Origin: a virus
Length of the DNA: 25,579 nt
Strand: one strand, 5' to 3'
IMG/VR virus record: IMGVR_UViG_3300006844_000039
Span: 1 to 25,579 of that record
The notes under the pieces were generated by a model that ran no database searches, was not told where the DNA came from, and was given only the letters and a program-made list of their open reading frames with translations. A program made the position numbers and the translations under genes. How positions within the stretch are numbered: the stretch's first letter is position 1; every line of letters begins with the position of its first letter. This document shows positions 8,504 through 21,741 of this stretch, piece by piece.

Positions 8504-8953
8504 TTATGGTGCGACGGGTAGAAGCGTGTAACGAATTCCGAAACGCATTTGCATATCGCAGTCCATTGCTAGACTGTGGTTCAGACGATAGTCGGTGGCG
8601 AGATAATAAACGCCGCACTGCGAATTGGCGACGACGATAGTTGTCAACTCCACGTCGCTCATCACGGCAGTCACGATCCGCGCCATCAATTCATTGATGT
8701 CAGTCCCGACATCTTCCGGTCTGCCGCCCATGGACACCACGATGATCGGATTCATTTGGATCACGGTATAAGCTTTGCCCTTGACCCATGGTCGCGCCAG
8801 TTCGGCAACCGCTTCTTCGTCGCCGTCAAGCAAGATCGCCATCGGGCGCACGGCTTCCGGAAACTCATCCAGATTGCGCGCCACCAGTTTCAGATCCTCC
8901 ACGGTATTGAGGATCACGAACAGCCGCGCGAGGATATCTTCCCGCTTGCTCAT
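8504..8953 (-). CDS. Probable tail terminator / tail completion protein (149 aa)
   Basis: A 149-residue protein starting MSKREDILARLFVILNTV, directly upstream of the tail tube gene, where siphophages encode the tail terminator that caps the tube and docks to the head. It has an N-terminal helix, a strand region RPMAILLDGDEEAV, the segment NPIIVVSMGGRPEDVGTDIN, a helix NELMARIVTAVM and C-terminal strands ending FGIRYTLLPVAP. This helix-plus-sheet order matches terminator proteins (lambda gpU type). ATG overlaps the previous stop as ATGA (8950-8953). Assignment is from order and secondary structure pattern. Confidence 0.65.
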   Translation of the reverse strand: MSKREDILARLFVILNTVEDLKLVARNLDEFPEAVRPMAILLDGDEEAVAELARPWVKGKAYTVIQMNPIIVVSMGGRPEDVGTDINELMARIVTAVMSDVELTTIVVANSQCGVYYLATDYRLNHSLAMDCDMQMRFGIRYTLLPVAP

Positions 8954-9303
8954 GGTGCCTGTTCATCAGCGAGCAACAACAGAATCTCGCCAGACCCTAC
9001 TGGCTGGCGCGCAAGTTGAAAGCTTTTGATGCGCCAGCGTTTGCCGTTGATGATGAATTCGCCTTTGTAAAAATATTCCTTCAGATCGGTAATGCCGAGC
9101 GATGTCACTTCACTTTCACGCACAAACGCCGACGGCCGTTGCGTCTGCATGTCGATAAAGGCGTGCGTCGGCTGGCTTGCGCCATCGGTATAATCCACCG
9201 CGCGCAGTGAATGACGTTCGCCGGTGGTGCGGATCAGCGTTGCATCGGTCGCGATCGGACTGGCATAGATCGGATCGAGCAGACTGTCCTGCCAGATGCT
9301 CAT
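8950..9303 (-). CDS. Probable head-closure / head-tail joining protein (117 aa)
   Basis: A small beta-rich protein of 117 residues, starting MSIWQDSLLDPIYASPIATD and containing TGERHSLRAVDY and the strand-rich GEFIINGKRWRIKSFQLARQ. The pattern of a long loop followed by a small barrel matches phage head-closure proteins (lambda gpFII or SPP1 gp16 type). It directly precedes the terminator candidate, the usual order. ATG overlaps the previous stop as ATGA. Unusually, its partner connector is 11 kb upstream at 20307-20927. Confidence 0.6.
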   Translation of the reverse strand: MSIWQDSLLDPIYASPIATDATLIRTTGERHSLRAVDYTDGASQPTHAFIDMQTQRPSAFVRESEVTSLGITDLKEYFYKGEFIINGKRWRIKSFQLARQPVGSGEILLLLADEQAP

Positions 9304-9464: not shown

Positions 9465-9778
9465 GATGTTGTCGTGTCCGCAACGTTGGCGAGATTGCCC
9501 GCCAGTTCGAAATAACCATCCTCCGCTGAGTCCGGATTTTCCGAGCGCACCGTCCAGTAGGTCCGCGCCGGTTGCGCCTGCTGGCTGTCCCATAGGCCAT
9601 ACCAAGTGTCGTCGGTCTGCGGTGATAGCGTAACCACTTCGCTTTCCCGCACGTCACTCATGTTGAGAAAATTTACCGTCACCGTCGCCGACGATGGCGA
9701 CAACGGCAGGCTTTCCCGGTTGAGGAATTGCACCGTGAATTCCACTTCGTTGCCGCGATCGATTGTTTCCACCAGCAT
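9461..9778 (-). CDS. Small beta-rich structural-region protein (105 aa)
   Basis: Starting at the ATG at 9778, which shares a base with the stop of the 779-residue gene (TGATG), the product is 105 residues: MLVETIDRGNEVEFTVQFLN and on. A TTG at 9802 would add eight residues and increase the overlap to 25 bases; the coupled ATG is preferred. The alternating polar/hydrophobic pattern (ATVTVNFLNMSD; YWTVRSENPDSAEDGYFELA) suggests an immunoglobulin-like beta sandwich, common in virion decoration proteins. It directly follows the large repeat gene and may attach to or cap that protein. Function unproven. Confidence 0.65.
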   Translation of the reverse strand: MLVETIDRGNEVEFTVQFLNRESLPLSPSSATVTVNFLNMSDVRESEVVTLSPQTDDTWYGLWDSQQAQPARTYWTVRSENPDSAEDGYFELAGNLANVADTTTS

Positions 9779-12117
9779 CAGGCTACCCGTTTCTTCGGCC
9801 AATCAACCACAACTGATGGCCTCGCTTTCGCTGCTACACCGACCTGGTGCGCGGTTGCTTTGATTGTCACGACAGTACTTGGCGCATTGTGTGTGATACC
9901 GACGCGGACTGTCTTGATGATATTATCGGCACTGACTTGCAGATCACTCTGCGCCGAAAGCTGACCCTCTCCGGCAAATAGTGCCGTCGCCACCATGCGA
10001 TGGATGGTGCTAACACTGATGCTGCCGCTGCCATTGAACGTCGCAACAATGAAAGTGCGTTTGTCGGCGGCGGCGTTGAGATTGCCGGTGCCTACTAACA
10101 GCGCTGACGCGCCATGCAGCGGCAGAGCCGATGCCGCCAGCGACCCACTCCCGGCAAAGGTGGCGGCGTTATTGATGACGCGGATCGCCGATGCGACAAA
10201 GGCACCTGTCCCGGCAAATGTTGCAGAAATCGGCTTGCGCAGACCGGCGTCGACACTGAGATTGCCGGTCCCGGCAAATGCCGCTAGCGCCACCATACGC
10301 TGCCGTGCCGACACATTGAGATCGCCGGTGCCGGATAGCGATGAAACTGCCGTCATCCGCAGCAGCCGCGCCGCAACATTCATATTGCCGCTGCCTGCCA
10401 GCAATGCAGTCCCAGACAGACCAACTTGCGGAATAGTCAGATCGCCGGCCAGTGATCCTGTGCCAGCGAACGTCGCCAGCGCGGGAAACCGCAGACCTGC
10501 CGAAGCGATAAACGCACCAGTTCCAGCAAAGGTCGCGGCTGCACTGAAAACGAGGCTTGCCGACGATGTCAGCGATCCGCTGCCGTTGAATGTCGCGGCA
10601 GCGGAAATGTACTTGATTGAATCCGCCGAGAACGCGCCGAGCCCGTTGAACGATGCACTTGCGGCCAGCCGTTGCAGCGCCGTCGCCGAAAGCGCCCCGC
10701 TTCCGGCATAGGCCGTGCTTGCCGCAAGACGTTGCAGCGCCATCGCCGAAAGATTGCCTGCGCCTGTAAACAGCGCCGATCCGGCGTAGGTCGTAGTAGC
10801 GCCGGCAATAGTGGCGAAAGCATCGAGATTACCGGTGCCAGCGAATGTCGCCGCAGCCACCATGCGCAGCCGCGCTGCGACGGATAGATCGCCTACGCCG
10901 CTGAATGTGACGTTGACGGGCGAGCGCAATTGCGCCAGTGCCGCCAGACTGCCGGTGCCTGCGAAATTTGCGCTTGCGGCCAACCGGACTTGCGCGAGTG
11001 CTGCCAGATTGCCGGCACCGTTGAATGCCGCGCTGGCCGGAGTAACCCGGATGGCATCGCTATTGAGATTGCCGGTCCCGGCAAAACTTGCCGCCACCGT
11101 CAGCCGCAATAATGCGAGAGTAGATAGATCACCAGTCCCGGCAAAGCTCGCGCTGCTGATCAGTCGCAGTTGCGCAGTGGCGGATAGATTTCCCGTCCCG
11201 GCGAAACTCGCCAGCGCCGGAGTGATCCGCATGCCATCGGCTGAGAAATTGCCACTGCCAACGAATGCGGCCGATGCAACCAACCGCAACGAAGCAGTTG
11301 CCGATAGATCGCCAGCTCCATTGAACGTTGCCGATCCGCTGAGAACGCCGCCGCCGACAACAACAGTTGCCGCAGCCGTCAGAGAACCGGAGCCACCAAA
11401 CGTGGCTGCAGCATTCAATAATAATTGCGCTAATGCAGATTGATTGCCGGTCCCGCCAAACGTCGCCAACCCAGGTATAACGCGAATGGCATCGACCGAG
11501 AAATTTCCTGCACCGGCAAAGATAATCGAGGCACGCAATCGCAACGATGCTAAGGCAGAAAGATCGCCCGCGCCGACGAATACAACTGATGCTAATAGCC
11601 GTTGCGTCGCTAATGCGGAAAGATTTTCAGTGCCGGCGAAGGTCGCAAGAGCAGGCAGCAGCAACCTTGCCGACGCCGCCACATTGCCGGCGCCATTGAA
11701 TACGGCGTCGGCCGAAGCCGCGCTTTTCAATGCATTGACGGATAGATTGCCAGTACCGGCGAAAAGCGCTGATGCGGAATATGCATGCGCCGGAATTGTG
11801 ATAGTCGGCGTGATCGAGTAGACGTCGAGCGCAACGCCATTGACATAAACGCGGAATCTTAAAACATCGCCTTGCGCTAATGTGTCGAGATCAAGATCGA
11901 GCCCGTATTCCAGTTCCGTTAATGTATCAGCCGGAAAGGCAAGGCTGGCGACTTCACCCGTCTCGTCGTATTTGCCCGGTCGGAATCGATCATTAGCAAA
12001 TAGTCCACCAGCACCGGCAAAGGTCACGACGCCTTGATATGTCGTCGGAGGAAAAGCCGCATTTCCGCTTAAAGTGCTGGAAAGGGCAGTGCCGCCGTCG
12101 CCGGGCCGGAGTGTCAT
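9778..12117 (-). CDS. Giant tandem-repeat virion/fibre-like protein (779 aa, about 30 repeats)
   Basis: Residues about 1-110 form a non-repeated head, including ELEYGLDLDLDTLAQGDVLR and FRVYVNGVALDVYSITPTIT, which reads as a beta-sandwich domain seen in phage fibre proteins. Residues about 115-730 are about 30 consecutive copies of a 20-residue unit with core A-T-F-A-G-T-G-N-L-S-A-x-A-x-x-R-L. A 48-residue non-repeated tail ends VVVDWPKKRVA. Regular Gly turns and alternating small/hydrophobic residues suggest stacked beta hairpins or a solenoid rod. No enzyme motif, signal peptide or membrane segment is seen. The second gene with the same unit is at 2555-3310. It stands one base after the 125-residue paralogue. 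The likeliest role is a long fibre or surface decoration; that is inference. Confidence 0.8.
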   Translation of the reverse strand: MTLRPGDGGTALSSTLSGNAAFPPTTYQGVVTFAGAGGLFANDRFRPGKYDETGEVASLAFPADTLTELEYGLDLDLDTLAQGDVLRFRVYVNGVALDVYSITPTITIPAHAYSASALFAGTGNLSVNALKSAASADAVFNGAGNVAASARLLLPALATFAGTENLSALATQRLLASVVFVGAGDLSALASLRLRASIIFAGAGNFSVDAIRVIPGLATFGGTGNQSALAQLLLNAAATFGGSGSLTAAATVVVGGGVLSGSATFNGAGDLSATASLRLVASAAFVGSGNFSADGMRITPALASFAGTGNLSATAQLRLISSASFAGTGDLSTLALLRLTVAASFAGTGNLNSDAIRVTPASAAFNGAGNLAALAQVRLAASANFAGTGSLAALAQLRSPVNVTFSGVGDLSVAARLRMVAAATFAGTGNLDAFATIAGATTTYAGSALFTGAGNLSAMALQRLAASTAYAGSGALSATALQRLAASASFNGLGAFSADSIKYISAAATFNGSGSLTSSASLVFSAAATFAGTGAFIASAGLRFPALATFAGTGSLAGDLTIPQVGLSGTALLAGSGNMNVAARLLRMTAVSSLSGTGDLNVSARQRMVALAAFAGTGNLSVDAGLRKPISATFAGTGAFVASAIRVINNAATFAGSGSLAASALPLHGASALLVGTGNLNAAADKRTFIVATFNGSGSISVSTIHRMVATALFAGEGQLSAQSDLQVSADNIIKTVRVGITHNAPSTVVTIKATAHQVGVAAKARPSVVVDWPKKRVA
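9924..11775. repeat. Tandem 60-base degenerate repeat array (about 30 units)
   Basis: The DNA behind the 20-residue repeats has a near-exact 60-base period. For example, CCGGCAAA recurs at 10151, 10211 and 10271 on the plus strand. Units are diverged at third positions and elsewhere but keep a conserved core reading GCCGGtcCCGGCAAA or close variants on the plus strand. Some units are lengthened (for example around 11340-11360, where a Gly/Val insert occurs). It is a protein-coding array, not a CRISPR: there are no unique spacers. Confidence 0.85.
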
Positions 12118-12118
12118 G

Positions 12119-12496
12119 TCAGCTGATCGTTATTTTTAATGCTCCGGCGGAGAACACAGGAGCATCGCCTGATTTGCAGCCCACCGCCGCCGCGACCGTG
12201 CCGTATGCAATTCTGTTCCCGCTCACCGAACTATCGTAAAGATTCCATCCAACCGCCGTCGCAGCCACCGATACGGTTGCTCCGGTCACTGCAGCAAGAA
12301 GTGTCGCCGATCCCTGCGGGGAATTGGCGGCGGCAAAAGTCACCGTCCGTCGGCTGGAAAACGGACCATCAAATGCCGACTGCGATGTCGGGCTTGCCGT
12401 TGCCCATTGCAGCCAGCGACCAACCGGCCGTGTCCCCGTCGCCGCGCCCGTCATCCAATCCAGCGTTTGTTTGGACAGATACGGCGTGATCGGCAT
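12119..12496 (-). CDS. Small fibre-region protein, paralogue of 14856-15251 (125 aa)
   Basis: A 125-residue protein starting MPITPYLSKQTLDWMTGAAT and ending FSAGALKITIS. It aligns along its length with the 131-residue protein at 14856-15251: both have YLSKQTLDW near the start, a T/Q-x-P-x-x-RW motif, a following SPTS/APTS segment, a YGT in the last third and a closing AGAL(K/T)ITxS. The compact beta-rich pattern resembles small tail-fibre or decoration proteins of phages. Its ATG abuts the previous TGA. In both places the paralogue is followed at once by a long probable fibre gene, suggesting it is an adaptor or anchor for that product. Confidence 0.7.
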   Translation of the reverse strand: MPITPYLSKQTLDWMTGAATGTRPVGRWLQWATASPTSQSAFDGPFSSRRTVTFAAANSPQGSATLLAAVTGATVSVAATAVGWNLYDSSVSGNRIAYGTVAAAVGCKSGDAPVFSAGALKITIS

Positions 12497-14855: not shown

Positions 14856-15251
14856 TTACGACAACGTGATCGTGAGCGCCCCCGCTGCGATCTGCAAACT
14901 GTCACCAGCGAGAAATGATCTCGCGGTCTGAAGCGTTCCATACCACAACATATTTGACGAATTGATGGGCGAGCCATCAAACAACACAATGCCCGATGCC
15001 GCGCCCGGTGACGAGAACGGTCCGAACAACAGCGATGCCGTGTTCGATGCCGATTGCGTCGGTGACGCCGCCGCACCGAACAATGCCGTCACGCGGCTGA
15101 AGTTGGTCTGGCTTCCCATTTCAGATGCGGACACCGAAGTTGGCGCACCGATGGAAAGACCAACCCAACGGTTTGCAGGCTGGGTGGCTGCCGCTCCTCC
15201 TAAATGCCAATCGAGCGTTTGCTTACTGAGATATGCCGAAATATTCGCCAT
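14856..15251 (-). CDS. Small fibre-region protein, paralogue of 12119-12496 (131 aa)
   Basis: A 131-residue protein starting MANISAYLSKQTLDWHLGGA and ending QIAAGALTITLS. It is a paralogue of the 125-residue gene 2.4 kb downstream and shares its start, its RW motif and its closing strand. It is the first gene after the modification cassette and has its own ribosome binding site in a 27-base gap (15252-15278), so it probably opens a translational block with the 522-residue protein. The fold looks like a compact beta structure; a tail-fibre anchor or decoration role is inferred. Confidence 0.72.
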   Translation of the reverse strand: MANISAYLSKQTLDWHLGGAAATQPANRWVGLSIGAPTSVSASEMGSQTNFSRVTALFGAAASPTQSASNTASLLFGPFSSPGAASGIVLFDGSPINSSNMLWYGTLQTARSFLAGDSLQIAAGALTITLS

Positions 15252-15278: not shown

Positions 15279-16046
15279 TCACTCAGCCGCTTGCAGTTTA
15301 TTCCGGTCGACAAAATCTCGAATGATGTCCGGACGTTTATCGCAAAATGTTTTCATCATATAGCTGTCACGGATGTACGGCGACGCCATCATAAATTCTA
15401 ATCGCTCATCAAGCTGATCCCGATCAAACACAAGCGGGAAGTTCATGCAGGCATGAAAGCCGAAATGTTTCTTTGGTGGTTTGCCGTCGCAGCCTTCATA
15501 GGCGAAATCATACGCGACGTTTTCCGACGCCCAGATAAAGCCTCTTTCCTCGAGCCGTGGACGGTAGGTACGGCAGAGCAAATCATCTTCCGTTTGCGAC
15601 ACGCAGGGAAAGTCGGCGCGGTGATCATAGACGTATCGCGCCAGCCGCGTTGACTTGAGCGAGAACCCGCTGTTGCCGACGTTCTTAGTTGGATGCCACC
15701 ACGGAGCGCCGATGTAATCGTAGCGTAGAAACTCGTCGCGCCACATACCGACATCCCAGACCCCGGCATCCCACTGGCAGAACAGAATATGCGATGTGTG
15801 CACATGCTTCGGCACGATGAACCAATTGGCCTTGCACCAGTCCAGCTTGCTCGGCCAATTCGGCACCGCGATGACGCGATGTTTGCACAGATGCGTCAGC
15901 GGCGAGAATTCCAGCGGACGATCAGTAAATACCAGGACATCAGCAAAATCGCACTTCTCAACACAGCTCTCGACCGCCATCCACCCAAGATCATGATCGA
16001 GCGTTTCGACCATGACCAGTGTCACATCGGGAAGGCTCAGTTTCAT
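15279..16046 (-). CDS. DUF5672-family glycosyltransferase (255 aa)
   Basis: From ATG 16046, which overlaps the upstream stop as ATGA, the protein is 255 residues: MKLSLPDVTLVMVETLDHDL and on. It carries the family's hallmark blocks: FCQWDAGVWD around residues 90-98, LRYDYIGAPWWHP around 107-119, VGNSGFSLKSTRLARYV around 123-139, then TEDDLLC and ENVAYDFAYE. The QWD block probably fills the role of the Asp-x-Asp nucleotide-sugar/metal site of GT-A enzymes; this is inference from the family. Such genes are found in phages and viruses within glycan-modification clusters. A longer start at 16073 would overlap the 74-residue gene by 31 bases and is less likely. Confidence 0.85.
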   Translation of the reverse strand: MKLSLPDVTLVMVETLDHDLGWMAVESCVEKCDFADVLVFTDRPLEFSPLTHLCKHRVIAVPNWPSKLDWCKANWFIVPKHVHTSHILFCQWDAGVWDVGMWRDEFLRYDYIGAPWWHPTKNVGNSGFSLKSTRLARYVYDHRADFPCVSQTEDDLLCRTYRPRLEERGFIWASENVAYDFAYEGCDGKPPKKHFGFHACMNFPLVFDRDQLDERLEFMMASPYIRDSYMMKTFCDKRPDIIRDFVDRNKLQAAE

Positions 16047-16267
16047 TTGTAGTGACTGCGTTGTGCGATCCATTGATCATAATCACGTTGGCGCCGGTCG
16101 CGTCGCTCGCCGAACAGCGTCAGCAGCCAACCGTTTTCTCGCCGGACAATGCGCTGCGCGAAAGCTATATCATCAAAGTCCATGGCGCAGATCACGCGCC
16201 CCCTGGCATCTACAATCTTGATCTGCGTTAGATTGTTGGCAGGCACAAGCCGTAGCGGAAGATTCAT
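16043..16267 (-). CDS. Small hypothetical protein in modification cassette (74 aa)
   Basis: A 74-residue gene starting MNLPLRLVPANNLTQIKIVD at ATG 16267, overlapping the methyltransferase stop as ATGA. The N-terminal half looks like a small beta sheet (IKIVDARGRVICAMDF) and the C-terminal half is basic and helical (GERRDRRQRDYDQWIAQRSH). No family recognised. It lies between the FkbM-like methyltransferase and DUF5672 glycosyltransferase, so it may be an accessory subunit of this pathway. Confidence 0.6.
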   Translation of the reverse strand: MNLPLRLVPANNLTQIKIVDARGRVICAMDFDDIAFAQRIVRRENGWLLTLFGERRDRRQRDYDQWIAQRSHYK

Positions 16268-16968
16268 CGCTGTTTCGCTTTCATCACCAACCAATCCATC
16301 ATGCAGGGTCGCCCTTCGCAAACCGCCATCCAGCGATGCAATGATTCACGTCCACGCAGGATCGCATATTTATTCGGATTGCGGGCACCTTCGAAAATGT
16401 GCTCGATCTCATGCGTAGCTGCAAATCTCTGCAGCAGAATATCTGCGATCGGATATTCTTCGGTGTTGTGACATTCAACGATGATGTCAGATCGCATCAA
16501 ATCAGGAAAAAAGTCGAGCTTGAGATAGTTGATCTCGTCGCCTTCCACATCGCAAATAACCAGATCCGGTCGCTTCATTACTTCGGCAATATCGCAGTCA
16601 ATCCTGATTTCAACGCCGTTGATCTCTGCCGCCCTTTGCAAGATGGCCAGCGATCCCTTCGAAATGTCGACGCCGTAGATAATGGCTGCTGGCAACCGTC
16701 GCGCCAGACCGATGGCATAATACCCTTCGGCGCAACCAAGATCGACGATCTTGGCTTCATCATATTTTGCCAACCGTTCGATCTGGTATTCGATGGCCGG
16801 ATGCAGTTCTTCCTCGTAACAGCCGAGGCACTTGGTACTCAGATTGCCGTCGTTCCATTCCTGTCTGTCGAGCAACAGCATTCCGGCGAATGGTCCGCTT
16901 TGCACGACGCCGTGCGTCTCGGAATAGATCCAGTGATCGACGGAGTCGTAAAGCTTCAGCTCCTTCAT
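16264..16968 (-). CDS. FkbM-like SAM-dependent methyltransferase (234 aa)
   Basis: A class I methyltransferase. Residues about 74-84 carry motif I, IVDLGCAEGYY, followed by an acidic strand end GVDIS and, near residue 140, DVEGDEINYLKLDF, close to the D-V/I-E-G motif of FkbM-type methyltransferases that often act on sugar hydroxyls. The N-terminal domain contains KCLGCYEEELHPAIEYQIER. Start chosen at ATG 16968, which overlaps the GT9 stop as ATGA and follows GGAAGCC; ATG 16977 is a possible alternative, and the frame is open up to 17064. Its place between glycosyltransferases suggests methylation of a sugar or glycan end. Substrate unknown. Confidence 0.82.
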   Translation of the reverse strand: MKELKLYDSVDHWIYSETHGVVQSGPFAGMLLLDRQEWNDGNLSTKCLGCYEEELHPAIEYQIERLAKYDEAKIVDLGCAEGYYAIGLARRLPAAIIYGVDISKGSLAILQRAAEINGVEIRIDCDIAEVMKRPDLVICDVEGDEINYLKLDFFPDLMRSDIIVECHNTEEYPIADILLQRFAATHEIEHIFEGARNPNKYAILRGRESLHRWMAVCEGRPCMMDWLVMKAKQR

Positions 16969-18014
16969 GGCTTCCATAACCGCTGAATATTGTCCATCAG
17001 CGTCTCGACCGAAATATCCGCCATGCAGGCCGCCACTTCGGTGCCCGGCTTGAATGGCACGCAAGTATCAATTGAATTATGTAAACGGTGACACGGCCAA
17101 CACGGCACGTTGTCGGGATCGGCATGCAGCGTCGTGGTGTTGATCCAGTGCCGCGTGATATTCTCCGCACTGGCATGCGACACCATGATGATCTTCGGCA
17201 TCGGCTCCATCGCTGCTGCCCATGCCAGCCCGGTATCAGGACTGATCACCATGCTGGCCGTGAGCACTTGCGTTAAGCTGCGGCGCGTTGACCAGTGCTG
17301 ATGCCCGCCGGGATCGGAGTTTTCCGGTGACAGCGCCAGATGCAACCCCTTGGCGGTGCTGTTGGTGCGCGTGACATCTTCCAACACCACTTGCGCCATC
17401 TCGAATTGCTTACCGCCAACGCCGAGCAGCACGACCGGAATATCCAATTCCTTTATGATCCGGCAGATCGCCTGCGTTGAATAAGGATAAACCTTGTCGA
17501 CGCGCGAACCACCAAGAATCCAAGCCAGATATTTTCCACCAATAGACTCGTCGCGCGTCTTGATGGCTCGCGCCCGTTCCTCGTCGGTTGGATAAAACAA
17601 TGGACAGCCAAATTCATAAGGCTGCGGCAGACCGACAATGTCCCATGCGGTTTCAAGATATGACCCACCACAGAGTTTTCGTCTGTAGTCTGATGGCCAC
17701 CAGAAGTCGGTATCAGTCTCGAACAGCGCATGCCGTTTCTCGACCGAGTGGCTCAAATTCCACAAGCCGCCCATATATTCATGGGATCGCGCGACAAACC
17801 ATTTGGTCCATTCGCCGGGACCGTGCGGAATATCCTTTTCGCCTTTGACCGAAAGCTTGTCGACATGCGGATTATTCAGATAGACGCAGGCGAAGGATTC
17901 AGATGTAATGACTTCAACCAGATAGCCCAAGCGCTTGAGCGGCGCGAGAACGGAGGCCGCAATTAAATTATCTCCGAGTCCGCCAAGCCGGCAGACCGCT
18001 GCCCAGCCTTGCAC
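16965..18014 (-). CDS. GT9 heptosyltransferase-like glycosyltransferase (349 aa)
   Basis: A two-domain GT-B protein of the GT9 family. The N-terminus has CRLGGLGDNLIAASVLAPLK (residues 8-27), matching the Gly-rich loop with Asp of heptosyltransferases. The C-terminal domain has AWILGGSRVDKVYPY (164-178) and VISPDTGLAWAAA (256-268), matching the donor-binding block of WaaC/WaaF-type enzymes that recognise ADP-heptose. A Cys/His cluster PCWPCHRLH follows. The start is GTG at 18014, sharing one base with the upstream stop (TAGTG). Family known: transfer of heptose or a related sugar from ADP-sugar. Here the acceptor is unknown; host lipopolysaccharide core or a virion protein are both possible. 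Confidence 0.85.
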   Translation of the reverse strand: MQGWAAVCRLGGLGDNLIAASVLAPLKRLGYLVEVITSESFACVYLNNPHVDKLSVKGEKDIPHGPGEWTKWFVARSHEYMGGLWNLSHSVEKRHALFETDTDFWWPSDYRRKLCGGSYLETAWDIVGLPQPYEFGCPLFYPTDEERARAIKTRDESIGGKYLAWILGGSRVDKVYPYSTQAICRIIKELDIPVVLLGVGGKQFEMAQVVLEDVTRTNSTAKGLHLALSPENSDPGGHQHWSTRRSLTQVLTASMVISPDTGLAWAAAMEPMPKIIMVSHASAENITRHWINTTTLHADPDNVPCWPCHRLHNSIDTCVPFKPGTEVAACMADISVETLMDNIQRLWKP

Positions 18015-18247
18015 TAGCCGACCACCTTGCCGCCACGAATGACGCTGATCTTGCTCTCGTCGATCTGCAATGTGCCGAAGCCGCCGACTGCCGCCGCCTG
18101 CGCGACCTTGATCCGCGCCAGATGATAGATCGCCACCGGCTTCGTTCCTGGGACAATTTCCCAGCGGTCGGCAACCAGCTTGTTCACTTCAGCCTGGAAA
18201 TGCTCATCAATCGGGATCGTCTTGGTTTCGTATTCGAGATCCATCAT
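18014..18247 (-). CDS. Small protein in modification cassette, DUF4177-like pattern (77 aa)
   Basis: Start ATG 18247, overlapping the methyltransferase stop as ATGA, with a good Shine-Dalgarno (AAGGGAGT) upstream. The product, starting MMDLEYETKTIPIDEHFQAE, has a helix then NKLVADRWEIVPGTKPVAIY, a strand arrangement like the DUF4177 pattern (short helix, then DGWELV-type strand), and a C-terminal strand region ISVIRGGKVVG. A longer frame to 18340 exists but its first 31 residues are the out-of-frame shadow of the methyltransferase. Function unknown; an accessory role in glycan modification is conceivable. Confidence 0.62.
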   Translation of the reverse strand: MMDLEYETKTIPIDEHFQAEVNKLVADRWEIVPGTKPVAIYHLARIKVAQAAAVGGFGTLQIDESKISVIRGGKVVG

Positions 18248-18864
18248 GTCGACTCCCTTAAAAAGGCAAAGCTGCCGATATCTTCGCGGCCCAATTTTGT
18301 TTCGCTGTCGTTTTCCTCGACCAGATGAAAGCCAAGACAACGCATCATCTGCACAAGGCCATCACGAGTAAAGTACCAGCAATGTTCGTCTGGCCGGAAA
18401 TGCTTCGACCGCAGCACATGCTTGGCATCGGCAAAGATAGGCAATGATACGAACATCCATTGCTCGACGTTGCGCAGCAAGCGCCAGAACTCCGGGATAT
18501 GCTCCAGTACATCCCACAATGACATCGCAGTGAATGATACACGGTAAGGATCGGCCCACAGCTGCCGTGCCTTGAGCCAGTCGATGGCCGCCGGGCAAAC
18601 ATCATAGCCACAGGCGTTCCCGCGCAATTCGATGAAGGCTCCGCTGCCAATTCCGACATCACATAGAAACCCATCATAGTGCCGCACCACGAAGTCGACG
18701 CGTGCTTGCATCAAGGCGCGGCCGATATCGCTGTCGGCCTGACGCTGGTAACGCTCAAAGTAGGCGCGGTCGTAGGGCTTAATCCCAGCACTGACAGGAA
18801 GCCAGCCAACTCCGAACTCATACCAGACCAAGGAGCCGTAGCGTTCATAATTTGTTGTTGACAA
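18244..18864 (-). CDS. SAM-dependent methyltransferase (about 206 aa; start uncertain)
   Basis: Class I methyltransferase with motif I LCDVGIGSGAFIE, then CGYDVCPAAIDWLKA, and the post-motif block SLWDVLEHIPEFW typical of the Methyltransf_23 group. The C-terminal part HFRPDEHCWYFTRDGLVQMM with CLGFHLVEE matches small-molecule or sugar methyltransferases. The recognisable family sequence starts at NYERYGSLVWYEF, well inside the end of the glycosyltransferase gene, so I chose the TTG at 18864. Alternatives are ATG 18930 and TTG 18972 upstream, and ATG 18711, which is coupled to the glycosyltransferase stop (TGATG) but would discard conserved-looking N-terminal sequence (KPYDRAYFERYQRQADSDIG). 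The overlap of at least 154 bases is unusual here. Confidence 0.75.
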   Translation of the reverse strand: MSTTNYERYGSLVWYEFGVGWLPVSAGIKPYDRAYFERYQRQADSDIGRALMQARVDFVVRHYDGFLCDVGIGSGAFIELRGNACGYDVCPAAIDWLKARQLWADPYRVSFTAMSLWDVLEHIPEFWRLLRNVEQWMFVSLPIFADAKHVLRSKHFRPDEHCWYFTRDGLVQMMRCLGFHLVEENDSETKLGREDIGSFAFLREST

Positions 18865-19715
18865 TAGCTGCGCCACTGATCCTGCAGATTGCTGATGGTC
18901 TTGTTGCAGTTGTGGCGCATACTGGTGCATCGGCAGAAATTCTCCGGCGTGGCAAATCCGATTCGCGAACAATCCAAGCGGCGATCAAGAATCTTGTCCG
19001 GCGCATTGTGGCCACCTTGACCACCGAGCACGACAAAGCAATGCCGCTTGAGCGCGATCGAAGCTGGCACAATCCAGCCGACACCGCCGATCACGATATC
19101 TGATGCGCCGAGCAGCGCCAGCATGTCCATGACTGGTAGCTGACCAGATGTGAAATCATGATTGGCGCGAAGCGGCGGGCCGACCAACCATTCCGCGCCC
19201 AGCTCGATATCGGCTACCGCGACGATGTAATGCGTCGACCGTAATGTCTCGACGATATTGGCGATATATTGCGGCTCCGGATTGCGCGCCGCGTTGTACC
19301 ATTCGCGCCGCAGCGTGACCGGGCGCACAAATGCCAACGGCTTGTCATTTTGAGCGACCAACGGTAACGGCGGCAAGTCAAAATCGGCGGCATTGAGTTT
19401 GATGCCGAATGATTCCTCCATGCCAGCAATGATCGAGCGCCCGCCACGAAATGCGTTGACATAGCTATTGCGCTTGACCTGCTTGCAACCAACCGGCCTT
19501 GACGCCCATTGGACTTTGCTGCGGACCGCGTTCTTGGCTTGCGTGCGCAGCCGGGTTTGTGGATTGACGAATTTCACCGGCAGATCGGCATACAGTTCGG
19601 GCCACGCCGTCTCTAAGTAAACATCCCACTCACGCGCCAGCGCTTTGATGAATGGGCGCTGGAAAATATTGTCCCCGAGACCCTGCATCCCGATCACATG
19701 AAGTTGCTGCGACAT
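18711..19715 (-). CDS. GT9-type glycosyltransferase (334 aa; C-terminus overlaps methyltransferase)
   Basis: The N-terminus has HVIGMQGLGDNIFQRPFIKA (residues 6-25), the Gly-rich loop with Asp of the GT9 family. A C-terminal Rossmann part contains DIVIGGVGWIVPASIALKRH and FVVLGGQGGHNAPD, followed by a Cys-rich block FCRCTSMRHNCNKTISNL. Compared with the second GT9 enzyme, the canonical D-T-G donor block is replaced by GGVGW, so donor use may differ or activity may be reduced. Start ATG 19715 has GGAGG 3 bases upstream, a good but close ribosome site, and overlaps the preceding gene by 86 bases. Residues about 290-334 are read from DNA that encodes the methyltransferase in another frame and look like unselected extension, perhaps after loss of an earlier stop. 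Confidence 0.8.
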   Translation of the reverse strand: MSQQLHVIGMQGLGDNIFQRPFIKALAREWDVYLETAWPELYADLPVKFVNPQTRLRTQAKNAVRSKVQWASRPVGCKQVKRNSYVNAFRGGRSIIAGMEESFGIKLNAADFDLPPLPLVAQNDKPLAFVRPVTLRREWYNAARNPEPQYIANIVETLRSTHYIVAVADIELGAEWLVGPPLRANHDFTSGQLPVMDMLALLGASDIVIGGVGWIVPASIALKRHCFVVLGGQGGHNAPDKILDRRLDCSRIGFATPENFCRCTSMRHNCNKTISNLQDQWRSYCQQQIMNATAPWSGMSSELAGFLSVLGLSPTTAPTLSVTSVRPTAISAAP

Positions 19716-20310
19716 GATCCTCCAGATTGACGATAGGCCACAAGGTTAAAGCACTGCCGGGCGAAGCATTGACGCATTCAATGTTGCGCGCCTTCAGTGC
19801 TTCGGCAATGGGTGGCAAGTCGCGCTGATGGCGCAGATAGCAATTAGCCTGTTGCTTCCAGCGGTGCGGTGCATGATGATGCGTGCGCCCGTCGGCGGCC
19901 ACTTTCTGATCAATGCCAAGCAGCACGATCTTGCCTGCCGCGTGATGGACGGCGAGATTGATGGCTCCGGTCAGGGTGGTGTTCTTCACCATCAATTGGC
20001 CCGGATCCTCGGCCAGTCCCGGCGTCGCCTTGCGTTGCATGTGATACAGATTGGCCAAACCGCTGGCCGCGCTATGCGTGCTGATGATCTTGCCCTTGAA
20101 GCTTTTCAATGCCTTCAGATGATCAATCCACCAACGCATATCAGCAAACAGTAGAAACTGCGCTGCCGGGAAAATCTGATAGGAACTATTGATCACAATG
20201 ACATTCTTGCCGTCGAGCAATGTCAGATCCTGCGTCAGCAACGATGGCCCGCCGCCGATGATGTAGGCGGTCTGATCTTTCCAGATCGGCAGCGCGCGAT
20301 AGGGATTCAC
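19630..20310 (-). CDS. MptE/DUF115-like Rossmann protein (226 aa)
   Basis: Begins MNPYRALPIWKDQTAYIIGG with the block YIIGGGPSLLTQDLTLLDG and then VIVINSSYQIFPAAQFLLFA, the arrangement of MptE-like / DUF115 proteins (PF01973), which include diphosphokinase-like and sialyltransferase-like enzymes. FADMRWW and a middle segment GAINLAVHHAAGKIVLLGID follow, then WKQQANCYLRHQRDLPPIAE and CVNASPGSAL. Such proteins recur in phage late operons beside glycosyltransferases. ATG overlaps the connector stop as ATGA (20307-20310). The last 28 residues lie over the next gene and are Ala/Ser/Gly-rich without clear structure. Substrate unknown; nucleotide-sugar or sugar transfer is inferred from company. Confidence 0.72.
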   Translation of the reverse strand: MNPYRALPIWKDQTAYIIGGGPSLLTQDLTLLDGKNVIVINSSYQIFPAAQFLLFADMRWWIDHLKALKSFKGKIISTHSAASGLANLYHMQRKATPGLAEDPGQLMVKNTTLTGAINLAVHHAAGKIVLLGIDQKVAADGRTHHHAPHRWKQQANCYLRHQRDLPPIAEALKARNIECVNASPGSALTLWPIVNLEDHVAATSCDRDAGSRGQYFPAPIHQSAGA

Positions 20311-20927
20311 CCGCCAAGCACTTTGCGCCGATAGGGATCGATCAGCGAGATCACTGCCGGTGATACGATGCCGCCGCTGCCGCTTGAACCATTGACCGCA
20401 TAAGTAACGTTGCGGTCGCCATGCGAGATCGAGCGAATGACACCGACTTGTCCGCTCGCCATCAAGCTTGCACCGCGAATCAATTCGGTAACCGCCAACG
20501 CCAGCGACGGCGGCGCCTCGTCAGGCAAATCATAACCGCTGATATATTCGATCACGGTCAAACCGCTACAGAAACCCCACCAGCCGAGACTCACTTTCCA
20601 CAGCAGGCCATTTTCCTTGTTGAATTCGTATTCAGCCGGATCGGTCACGCTGTCGTTCTCGGTGATGCTGATAATCTCCTGCACCGGCCAGCGATCAAGT
20701 TTCAATTCGCTGCGTGGATTTTCGACCATGGAGATGCGGAAACTTTCGGTAACGTTCTGCCGCACGAATGGACGATCACACAAATCAGCGATCATTTTGG
20801 AATAGGCGGTCACCCGTGCTTGCAATTCGGCATCGTTGTTGATGCCGAGTGCCGCCGACACGATCGCCGCTGTCGTCAAATCATAGCTGCTGCCGGTATC
20901 GACGGTGAAATCAATATACCGCTGCAT
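20307..20927 (-). CDS. Head-tail connector protein, gp6-like (206 aa)
   Basis: From ATG 20927 (preceded by AGGA and overlapping the collagen-like stop by 17 bases) the product is 206 residues: MQRYIDFTVDTGSSYDLTTA and on. The helical N-terminal domain with AELQARVTAYSKMIADLCDR and the beta insert KLDRWPVQEIISITENDSVT plus a segment GLTVIEYISGYDLPDEAPPS, then the helix LALAVTELIRGASLM, match gp6-like connectors of HK97-type phages (PF05135), which bind under the portal. A longer reading from 20981 is possible but adds 18 residues over the collagen-like gene. Confidence 0.8.
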   Translation of the reverse strand: MQRYIDFTVDTGSSYDLTTAAIVSAALGINNDAELQARVTAYSKMIADLCDRPFVRQNVTESFRISMVENPRSELKLDRWPVQEIISITENDSVTDPAEYEFNKENGLLWKVSLGWWGFCSGLTVIEYISGYDLPDEAPPSLALAVTELIRGASLMASGQVGVIRSISHGDRNVTYAVNGSSGSGGIVSPAVISLIDPYRRKVLGG

Positions 20928-21741
20928 TCTGTCCTGCCGGGCCGCGCTCGCCGCGTGCGCCGTCCATGCCGTCCTTACCATCCTTGCCGCGTTTCACCGC
21001 CAGCCGCCACGCTTTACTGATTCCCGGTCGCTGCTTGGTTTCTTCCTTGCAGATGAACAGCGAACCGTCTGACGACACTACGGCACCGCGCGGGTAGACA
21101 TTGCCCTCGCGAAAGATCTCATGATCGAAGTCAGCCAGCGTCGCTTTATTGAACCAGAATTCCTTGACCTGATCGCCGCGCCGGAAACGATGACCGAATT
21201 TCAGCCCGTCCTCGATCGCTTCCATGTCATCGAAGCCGAAGCCGTCACGACCGGGCGCGCCATCTTTACCGGCAATGCCTTGTGCCCCATCACGCCCGAC
21301 AACGATGCCAAGATTATGCGTGCCGCCATCAGTCTTGGTGATAATCAGATGGCCATCACGATTAATGACGGCGCCGGCAAGGCCTATTCCATCCTTACCG
21401 TCTTTCGGCCACGGCAATTGATTGATCGATTTGATAACCTGTGCCGCAACCTGATTGGGATCGGCATCCTTGCCGTCTTTGCCATCAGCCGGCTTGGGAT
21501 AGGTGGCAAAAATATTTTCAATTTTCCGCTGAAGCAGCGGCACGAGCGTCGCCACCATCACATCAGCATCAACGCTTGTGCCGTCGATGCCGTCGCGACC
21601 CGGTTCGCCTGGTTCGCCTTTTTCCGGTTTGCGCGCTTCGAGTTCAATGATGCGCTTTTCCAGTTGGCCGATGCGTTCCGCTACATGACCTTTAATAATG
21701 TCGGCGATCTCGCGGCCCAGCGTTTCCTCAAGCTGCTGCAT
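20911..21741 (-). CDS. Collagen-like virion protein (276 aa)
   Basis: A helical N-terminus (MQQLEETLGREIADIIKGHV; likely a short coiled coil for trimerisation) is followed by Gly-X-Y tracts at about residues 42-54 (GEPGEPGRDGIDG), 87-92, 115-119, 149-167 (GRDGAQGIAGKDGAPGRDG) and 252-270 (GKDGKDGMDGARGERGPAG). Between them are folded segments, including FRRGDQVKEFWFNKATLADF and YPRGAVVSSDGSLFICKEET with RPGISKAWRLA, which resembles a small carbohydrate-binding module attached to collagen-like phage proteins. Such proteins form trimeric fibres on virions. It overlaps the portal stop by 14 bases. Its place between portal and connector suggests a head- or neck-attached fibre; that location is inferred. 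Confidence 0.8.
   Translation of the reverse strand: MQQLEETLGREIADIIKGHVAERIGQLEKRIIELEARKPEKGEPGEPGRDGIDGTSVDADVMVATLVPLLQRKIENIFATYPKPADGKDGKDADPNQVAAQVIKSINQLPWPKDGKDGIGLAGAVINRDGHLIITKTDGGTHNLGIVVGRDGAQGIAGKDGAPGRDGFGFDDMEAIEDGLKFGHRFRRGDQVKEFWFNKATLADFDHEIFREGNVYPRGAVVSSDGSLFICKEETKQRPGISKAWRLAVKRGKDGKDGMDGARGERGPAGQNAAVY

Follow-up and report, generated by a model that had tools for sequence, protein, structure and literature searches.

What do sugar-transfer and methylation enzymes modify when their genes lie among the virion genes of a phage? The window analysed here, the whole 25,579-nucleotide stretch of IMG/VR virus record IMGVR_UViG_3300006844_000039, from a phage seen in environmental DNA alone, raises this question with eight minus-strand genes at 15279-20310, within its virion operon. 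In the order of transcription they encode a DUF115-like protein, the transferase-like GT9a, the methyltransferase MT23, small76, the putative family 9 glycosyltransferase (GT9) GT9b, the methyltransferase MT25, small74 and DUF5672. The original prediction, made from the sequence alone, had described eight coupled genes running in the direction of the structural genes, and all are present, overlapping or abutting. We found that the last five (module B) are tied to the Gp80-like fibre gene just downstream. We give an even chance to the reading that the block is a virion-glycosylation locus, in which module B would act on the Gp80 fibre and the first three genes (module A) on another virion protein.

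Linkage of GT9b to a Gp80-like fibre gene

Viral contigs were scanned with GT9b and DUF5672 as queries, Gp80 not being used, and loci sharing DNA were merged, yielding 49 distinct GT9b clusters. A Gp80-like gene followed GT9b on the same strand in 42 of these. Five of the seven clusters without Gp80 were on contigs ending within 2.1 kb, leaving L127 and L143 as real exceptions. Gp80 lay at most 2 kb from GT9b in 37 clusters; for a gene picked at random from these loci, 8.0 would be expected. Of the 35 loci with a length of 12 kb or more, 33 had Gp80 within 5 kb of GT9b, five had the portal that close and none the major capsid protein (MCP). Tail-fibre and baseplate families near GT9b in relatives were varied (Baseplate_J, Mu Gp48, Gp34 trimer, Gp53-like, GP4 Gp77 adaptor), indicating that the phages carrying GT9b differ in type. 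Conversely, Gp80 homologues of isolates were also found without an annotated transferase alongside; that of phiM5 is noted as detected in particles.

GT9b also diverged in step with Gp80 (rho 0.56, 0/500 permutations), and rho was 0.72 in the subset also having a portal. Co-divergence extended to DUF5672 (rho 0.68) and MT25 (rho 0.49; 0/500 permutations each) and was absent for portal (0.14) and MCP (0.03). With the large protein encoded downstream, the value was 0.25 against 0.59 for Gp80 in the same comparison, the alignment of its repeated domains being noisy.

The assignment of the partner as a fibre protein relies on PF23140 ('Podophage GP4 fiber I'), for which both Gp80-like proteins of the window scored above the curated cut-off of 27 bits (75.7 and 45.0). 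Head decoration, suggested by the PHROG label 'head protein' of these 131- and 125-amino-acid (aa) proteins, was dropped because Pfam places them in fibre I.

Two modules joined in one block

By itself, the window GT9b matched no family profile, nor did a PDB sequence search return any match. At the level of its family, PF01075 was matched (best 8.2e-8 among 37 members), which by homology assigns GT9b to GT9. Across the 37 sequences, G14, D15, D260, T261 and G262 are invariant, and D173 and K174 are kept in 36. We take the GD, DTG and DK motifs to correspond to the WaaC active site. In place of the histidine expected after DTG there is another residue (Trp region); the donor need not be ADP-heptose, then, and may be a different one. 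Four invariant cysteines may bind metal. A structure model built from only 4 sequences was poor (predicted local distance difference test, pLDDT, 46), and its fold matches, WaaC and 3TOV (a GT9 protein) among them, carry little weight. A search of 50,697 phage records returned nothing for GT9b. Its chromosomal matches were Bacteroidetes GT9 genes of ~23% identity, not prophages, and the host was not found this way. DUF5672 scored 51.3 bits against a profile cut-off of 24.4 and models as a GT-A fold: its predicted structure (pLDDT 76.6) had top fold matches nearly all to GT-A transferases (E ~1e-4, template modelling score ~0.4), in agreement with the transferase assignment first given to it. 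No family match was found for small76, which may assist GT9b.

The three genes of module A form a constant set that recurs among connector genes. In 39 clusters, DUF115 directly preceded GT9a in 37 and MT23 directly followed it in 36; in 29, the head-tail adaptor lay just upstream of the trio. GT9a co-diverged most strongly with MT23 (0.88), then with DUF115 (0.76). Proteins of the DUF115 type are probably akin to the flagellin glycosyltransferases (Maf). The window member, originally called MptE/DUF115-like, is a distant MptE relative that is better placed in phrog_4603: against MptE-like PF01973 it reached 17.9 bits, below the curated cut-off of 34.6, and it matched CstII-type sialyltransferases weakly (E=0.045). 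Filing GT9a as GT9 by homology failed. None of 28 family members matched PF01075, the window protein had no Pfam match, PDB profiles gave none, and hhalign to GT9b was weak and partial (73 columns, probability 32%). With a GLGD motif invariant across 28 homologues, relatives annotated GT9 and that partial profile match, GT9a is best termed GT9-like; its C-x-C-x4-H-x-C motif may bind metal. The families named in the original prediction thus held for DUF5672, the methyltransferases and GT9b, but not for GT9a as a Pfam-supported GT9. MT23 homology starts near 18834, inside the annotated open reading frame (ORF), whose start is provisional. Here the ORFs of GT9a and MT23 share 262 nt (18711-18972), read in different frames; in many relatives the shared stretch is 94-120 nt.

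Comparison with two relatives revealed different histories for the two modules. Contig G002 resembles the window closely in the head and module A (MCP 65%, portal 69%, DUF115 62%, GT9a 62%, MT23 50%) and remotely in the tail (major tail protein 30%, head closure 39%). Relative to G003, the head is distant (MCP 41%, portal 53%) and the genes after MT23 are closer (GT9b 83%, MT25 75%, DUF5672 56%, Gp80 96%, head closure 78%, major tail protein 70%). As the pattern reverses after MT23, the simplest reading is that the window phage is a recombinant joining DUF115-GT9a-MT23 to small76-GT9b-MT25-small74-DUF5672. GT9a stands beside GT9b in this lineage only, among the 49 GT9b clusters. The single cassette originally described is therefore real as a block and composite in origin: in related phages each module recurs separately. 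The Gp80 protein (14856-15251) is 96% identical to the G003 copy (L040:12926-13321), while the neighbouring tail522 is about 45-52% identical; with synonymous sites saturated, such identity points to strong constraint at the protein level.

Enzyme content varied at the same place in relatives. The place of GT9a-MT23 is taken in G003 by four genes, among them one for a GT2 and one for a GT-D fold protein. In L059, genes for a UDP-sugar dehydrogenase, an epimerase and a sugar C-methyltransferase separate MT25 from DUF5672, and L123 has an additional GT9-like gene (weak match). The islands of relatives also hold DUF115, and of the additional families across 100 island ORFs, methyltransferases were the most frequent. 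We argue from this variation that the product is a glycan. The window lies, whole and at 100% identity, in a 50,289-bp IMG/VR contig (G001), which shows no repeat at its ends and may be incomplete, and no sugar-nucleotide gene was found among 24 other ORFs of that contig. Donors would thus be host-derived in this phage, as originally proposed, and phage-made in some relatives, L059 having its own sugar-nucleotide enzymes.

Read in the direction of transcription, the block follows terminase, fused protease-capsid, portal, collagen-like protein and head-tail adaptor genes. It precedes the Gp80-like gene, tail/fibre-like genes, the second Gp80-like gene, a 779-aa protein, head closure, major tail protein and tape measure, the last two being siphovirus-type genes. 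Start and stop codons overlap as ATGA at GT9b-MT25, MT25-small74 and small74-DUF5672; the small76-GT9b junction is TAGTG, MT23-small76 is ATGATG, and DUF115-GT9a and GT9a-MT23 are long overlaps. Purifying selection acts on those block genes that were compared with relatives (nonsynonymous, pN, 0.11-0.31; synonymous, pS, 0.60-0.78). Promoter- and terminator-like sites were not above chance. Of the shared late transcription unit first proposed, the overlapping, co-directional genes are observed, and late co-transcription is what we infer.

Table 1. Coordinates of the block genes, fibre-related genes and borders in the window
Feature	Position	Strand	Evidence or remark
Head-tail adaptor Ad1, upstream border	20307..20981	-	phrog_442 3.8e-27
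DUF115/MptE-like, sialyltransferase-like protein (module A)	19630..20310	-	phrog_4603 1.6e-29
GT9a, GT-B-like putative glycosyltransferase (module A)	18711..19715	-	phrog_6804 3.8e-89; relatives annotated GT9
MT23, S-adenosylmethionine (SAM) methyltransferase (module A)	18244..18972	-	phrog_6564 7.3e-68; Methyltransf_23 4e-11
small76, conserved 76-aa protein (module B)	18014..18244	-	beside GT9b in most of 13 clusters having small76
GT9b, putative family 9 glycosyltransferase, core of module B	16965..18014	-	24/37 homologues match PF01075
MT25, SAM methyltransferase (module B)	16264..16968	-	Methyltransf_25 6.9e-8; conserved GCAEGYYAIG motif
small74, 74-aa protein (module B)	16043..16267	-	adjoins DUF5672 in several relatives
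DUF5672, predicted GT-A-fold glycosyltransferase (module B)	15279..16046	-	PF18922 1.3e-13
Gp80-like fibre protein, proposed module B acceptor	14856..15251	-	PF23140 5.6e-21; solved-structure match 8jou_a
Second Gp80-like fibre protein	12119..12496	-	PF23140 1.7e-11
779-aa protein, often downstream of Gp80	9778..12117	-	recurs near GT9b-Gp80
Head closure Hc1, downstream border	8950..9303	-	phrog_82 3.5e-4

Candidate targets of the enzymes

Under virion glycosylation, two separately inherited modules would have been joined into one locus. During synthesis of the fibre subunits, the soluble GT9b (GT-B) and DUF5672 (GT-A) would draw on the cytoplasmic nucleotide-sugars of the host and build a sugar on the small Gp80-like protein encoded just downstream, and MT25 would methylate that sugar. 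Module A would likewise modify another virion protein. Modification of Gp80 by GT9b would explain the strict linkage, the co-divergence, and the occurrence of Gp80 lacking GT9b but hardly the reverse. The transferase genes lie among virion genes or are tied to them, as virion glycosylation predicts. A methylated glycan on a virion protein, one of two roles first suggested, thus remains the best reading, with the addition that the second module is tied to a fibre gene outside the block. Several points weigh against it. The Ser/Thr content of GT9b-linked Gp80 was not clearly above that of unlinked Gp80. Genes that move together co-diverge anyway, so co-divergence alone is no proof of an enzyme-substrate pair, and a transferase that modifies the receptor of the fibre should be linked to the fibre gene as well. 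For module A, no single virion partner stands out, GT9a co-diverging about alike with all virion genes (0.59-0.76). The case for a Gp80 glycan is built from gene families, order, linkage and co-divergence, and it is from these that we infer catalysis, donor, acceptor, timing and benefit.

The other role first suggested, a change of host surface sugars, ranks below virion glycosylation as a serious but fairly unlikely rival. The enzymes would alter a host glycan such as the lipopolysaccharide (LPS) core late in infection, allowing progeny to avoid debris and already infected cells, and the fibre apparatus would recognize that glycan. GT9 enzymes are classically LPS heptosyltransferases, a background with which the cellular homologues of GT9b and the WaaC and 3TOV matches of its weak model agree, and linkage to fibre genes fits as well. 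However, the block has no lipid-linked or membrane transferase and no flippase, so that neither gene of gtr-type serotype conversion (membrane flippase and membrane-bound transferase) is in it; its enzymes contain no strongly hydrophobic segment, the 19-residue hydrophobicity maximum being 1.91, within GT9a. Late expression would be ill-timed for superinfection exclusion. This rival also predicts co-divergence with the receptor binder, yet GT9b tracks Gp80 and not the large downstream protein, the better receptor-binding candidate, although the noisy alignment makes this a weak test. That module B glycosylates the capsid, the tail tube or the large downstream protein instead, Gp80 being linked through shared transfer as a cargo block, we consider distinctly unlikely. 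Neighbours can co-diverge merely by moving together, and capsid and tail tube are the targets in mycobacteriophages (PMC12363180), but MCP and portal seldom lie close to GT9b and show no co-divergence with it, and the large downstream protein, which is near it too, co-diverges weakly. Glycosylation of phage DNA by the cassette is very improbable. The same phage does encode a TET-associated glycosyltransferase (PF20691, 8.4e-40), of a family known for DNA hypermodification, but that gene sits ~33 kb off in another gene block, and the genes to which the cassette is linked are those for fibre and connector proteins and not those for replication; we rejected the idea on account of this separate location.

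Known systems and neighbouring genes

In mycobacteriophages, phage-encoded transferases glycosylate the capsid and the tail tube (PMC12363180). Virion glycosylation is described for Che8, Corndog and Myrna (Freeman et al. 2023, as cited in PMC12363180 and PMC11256854), whose own transferases are thought or shown to modify virion proteins. Their targets are capsid and tail tube, and the texts consulted describe no GT9-Gp80 fibre pairing. Pseudomonas phages D3 (orf7, orf12, orf13) and PAJU2 (ORF010-012) have module A homologues among connector genes (GT9a 44-45%, MT23 43-46%, plus a DUF115-like protein), but neither module B nor a Gp80-like gene was matched in the stretches compared. DUF115 homologues also adjoin morphogenesis or tail genes in P1 (pmgO), P7 (hdmB) and Caulobacter and Brevundimonas jumbo phages, CcrColossus having GT9, nucleotide-diphospho-sugar transferase and methyltransferase annotations nearby; these differ in arrangement and share only 24-38% identity. 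The proposed acceptor belongs to the same family as fibre I of Podophage GP4 (Gp80, PF23140, PDB 8jou), whereas the window phage has siphovirus-type genes.

Virion glycosylation is thus already known, and the transferable GT9-fibre module appears to be a form of it that has not been described before. The literature searched contained no report of such a module, which does not prove that none exists, and nothing relevant on phage fibre glycosylation. The broader proposal, which we put a little short of even, is of a widespread, transferable module: Gp80-type fibres would travel between phages whose heads are unrelated together with a GT9-family transferase, which would give them a methylated glycan of variable make-up. 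DUF5672 and a methyltransferase frequently accompany the transferase, and genes for sugar-nucleotide synthesis occasionally do. Phage glycosyltransferases are common and their targets mostly unknown; one that travels with a single small virion protein names a directly testable substrate. If true, phages encode dedicated fibre glycosylation pathways, which would bear on host recognition, immune recognition of phages and protein-glycosylation tools.

Among neighbouring genes, the position of the 779-aa protein makes it a possible adhesin. The collagen-like gene (20911-21741), between portal and adaptor, is kept just upstream of module A in 29/39 clusters; its product, which has matches to C-terminal PHROGs of the portal, may form a fibre on the head or neck. 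Two further genes lie outside the window. The PF20691 gene (L037:4734-5669; contig G001 44734-45669) lies close to genes for a ParB-like protein and a possible DNA adenine methylase, a setting which suggests that this phage hypermodifies its DNA. At L037:9359-9949 (contig G001 49359-49949) is a NusG/RfaH-like transcription factor (PF02357 1.2e-20), possibly an antiterminator for the long late operon.

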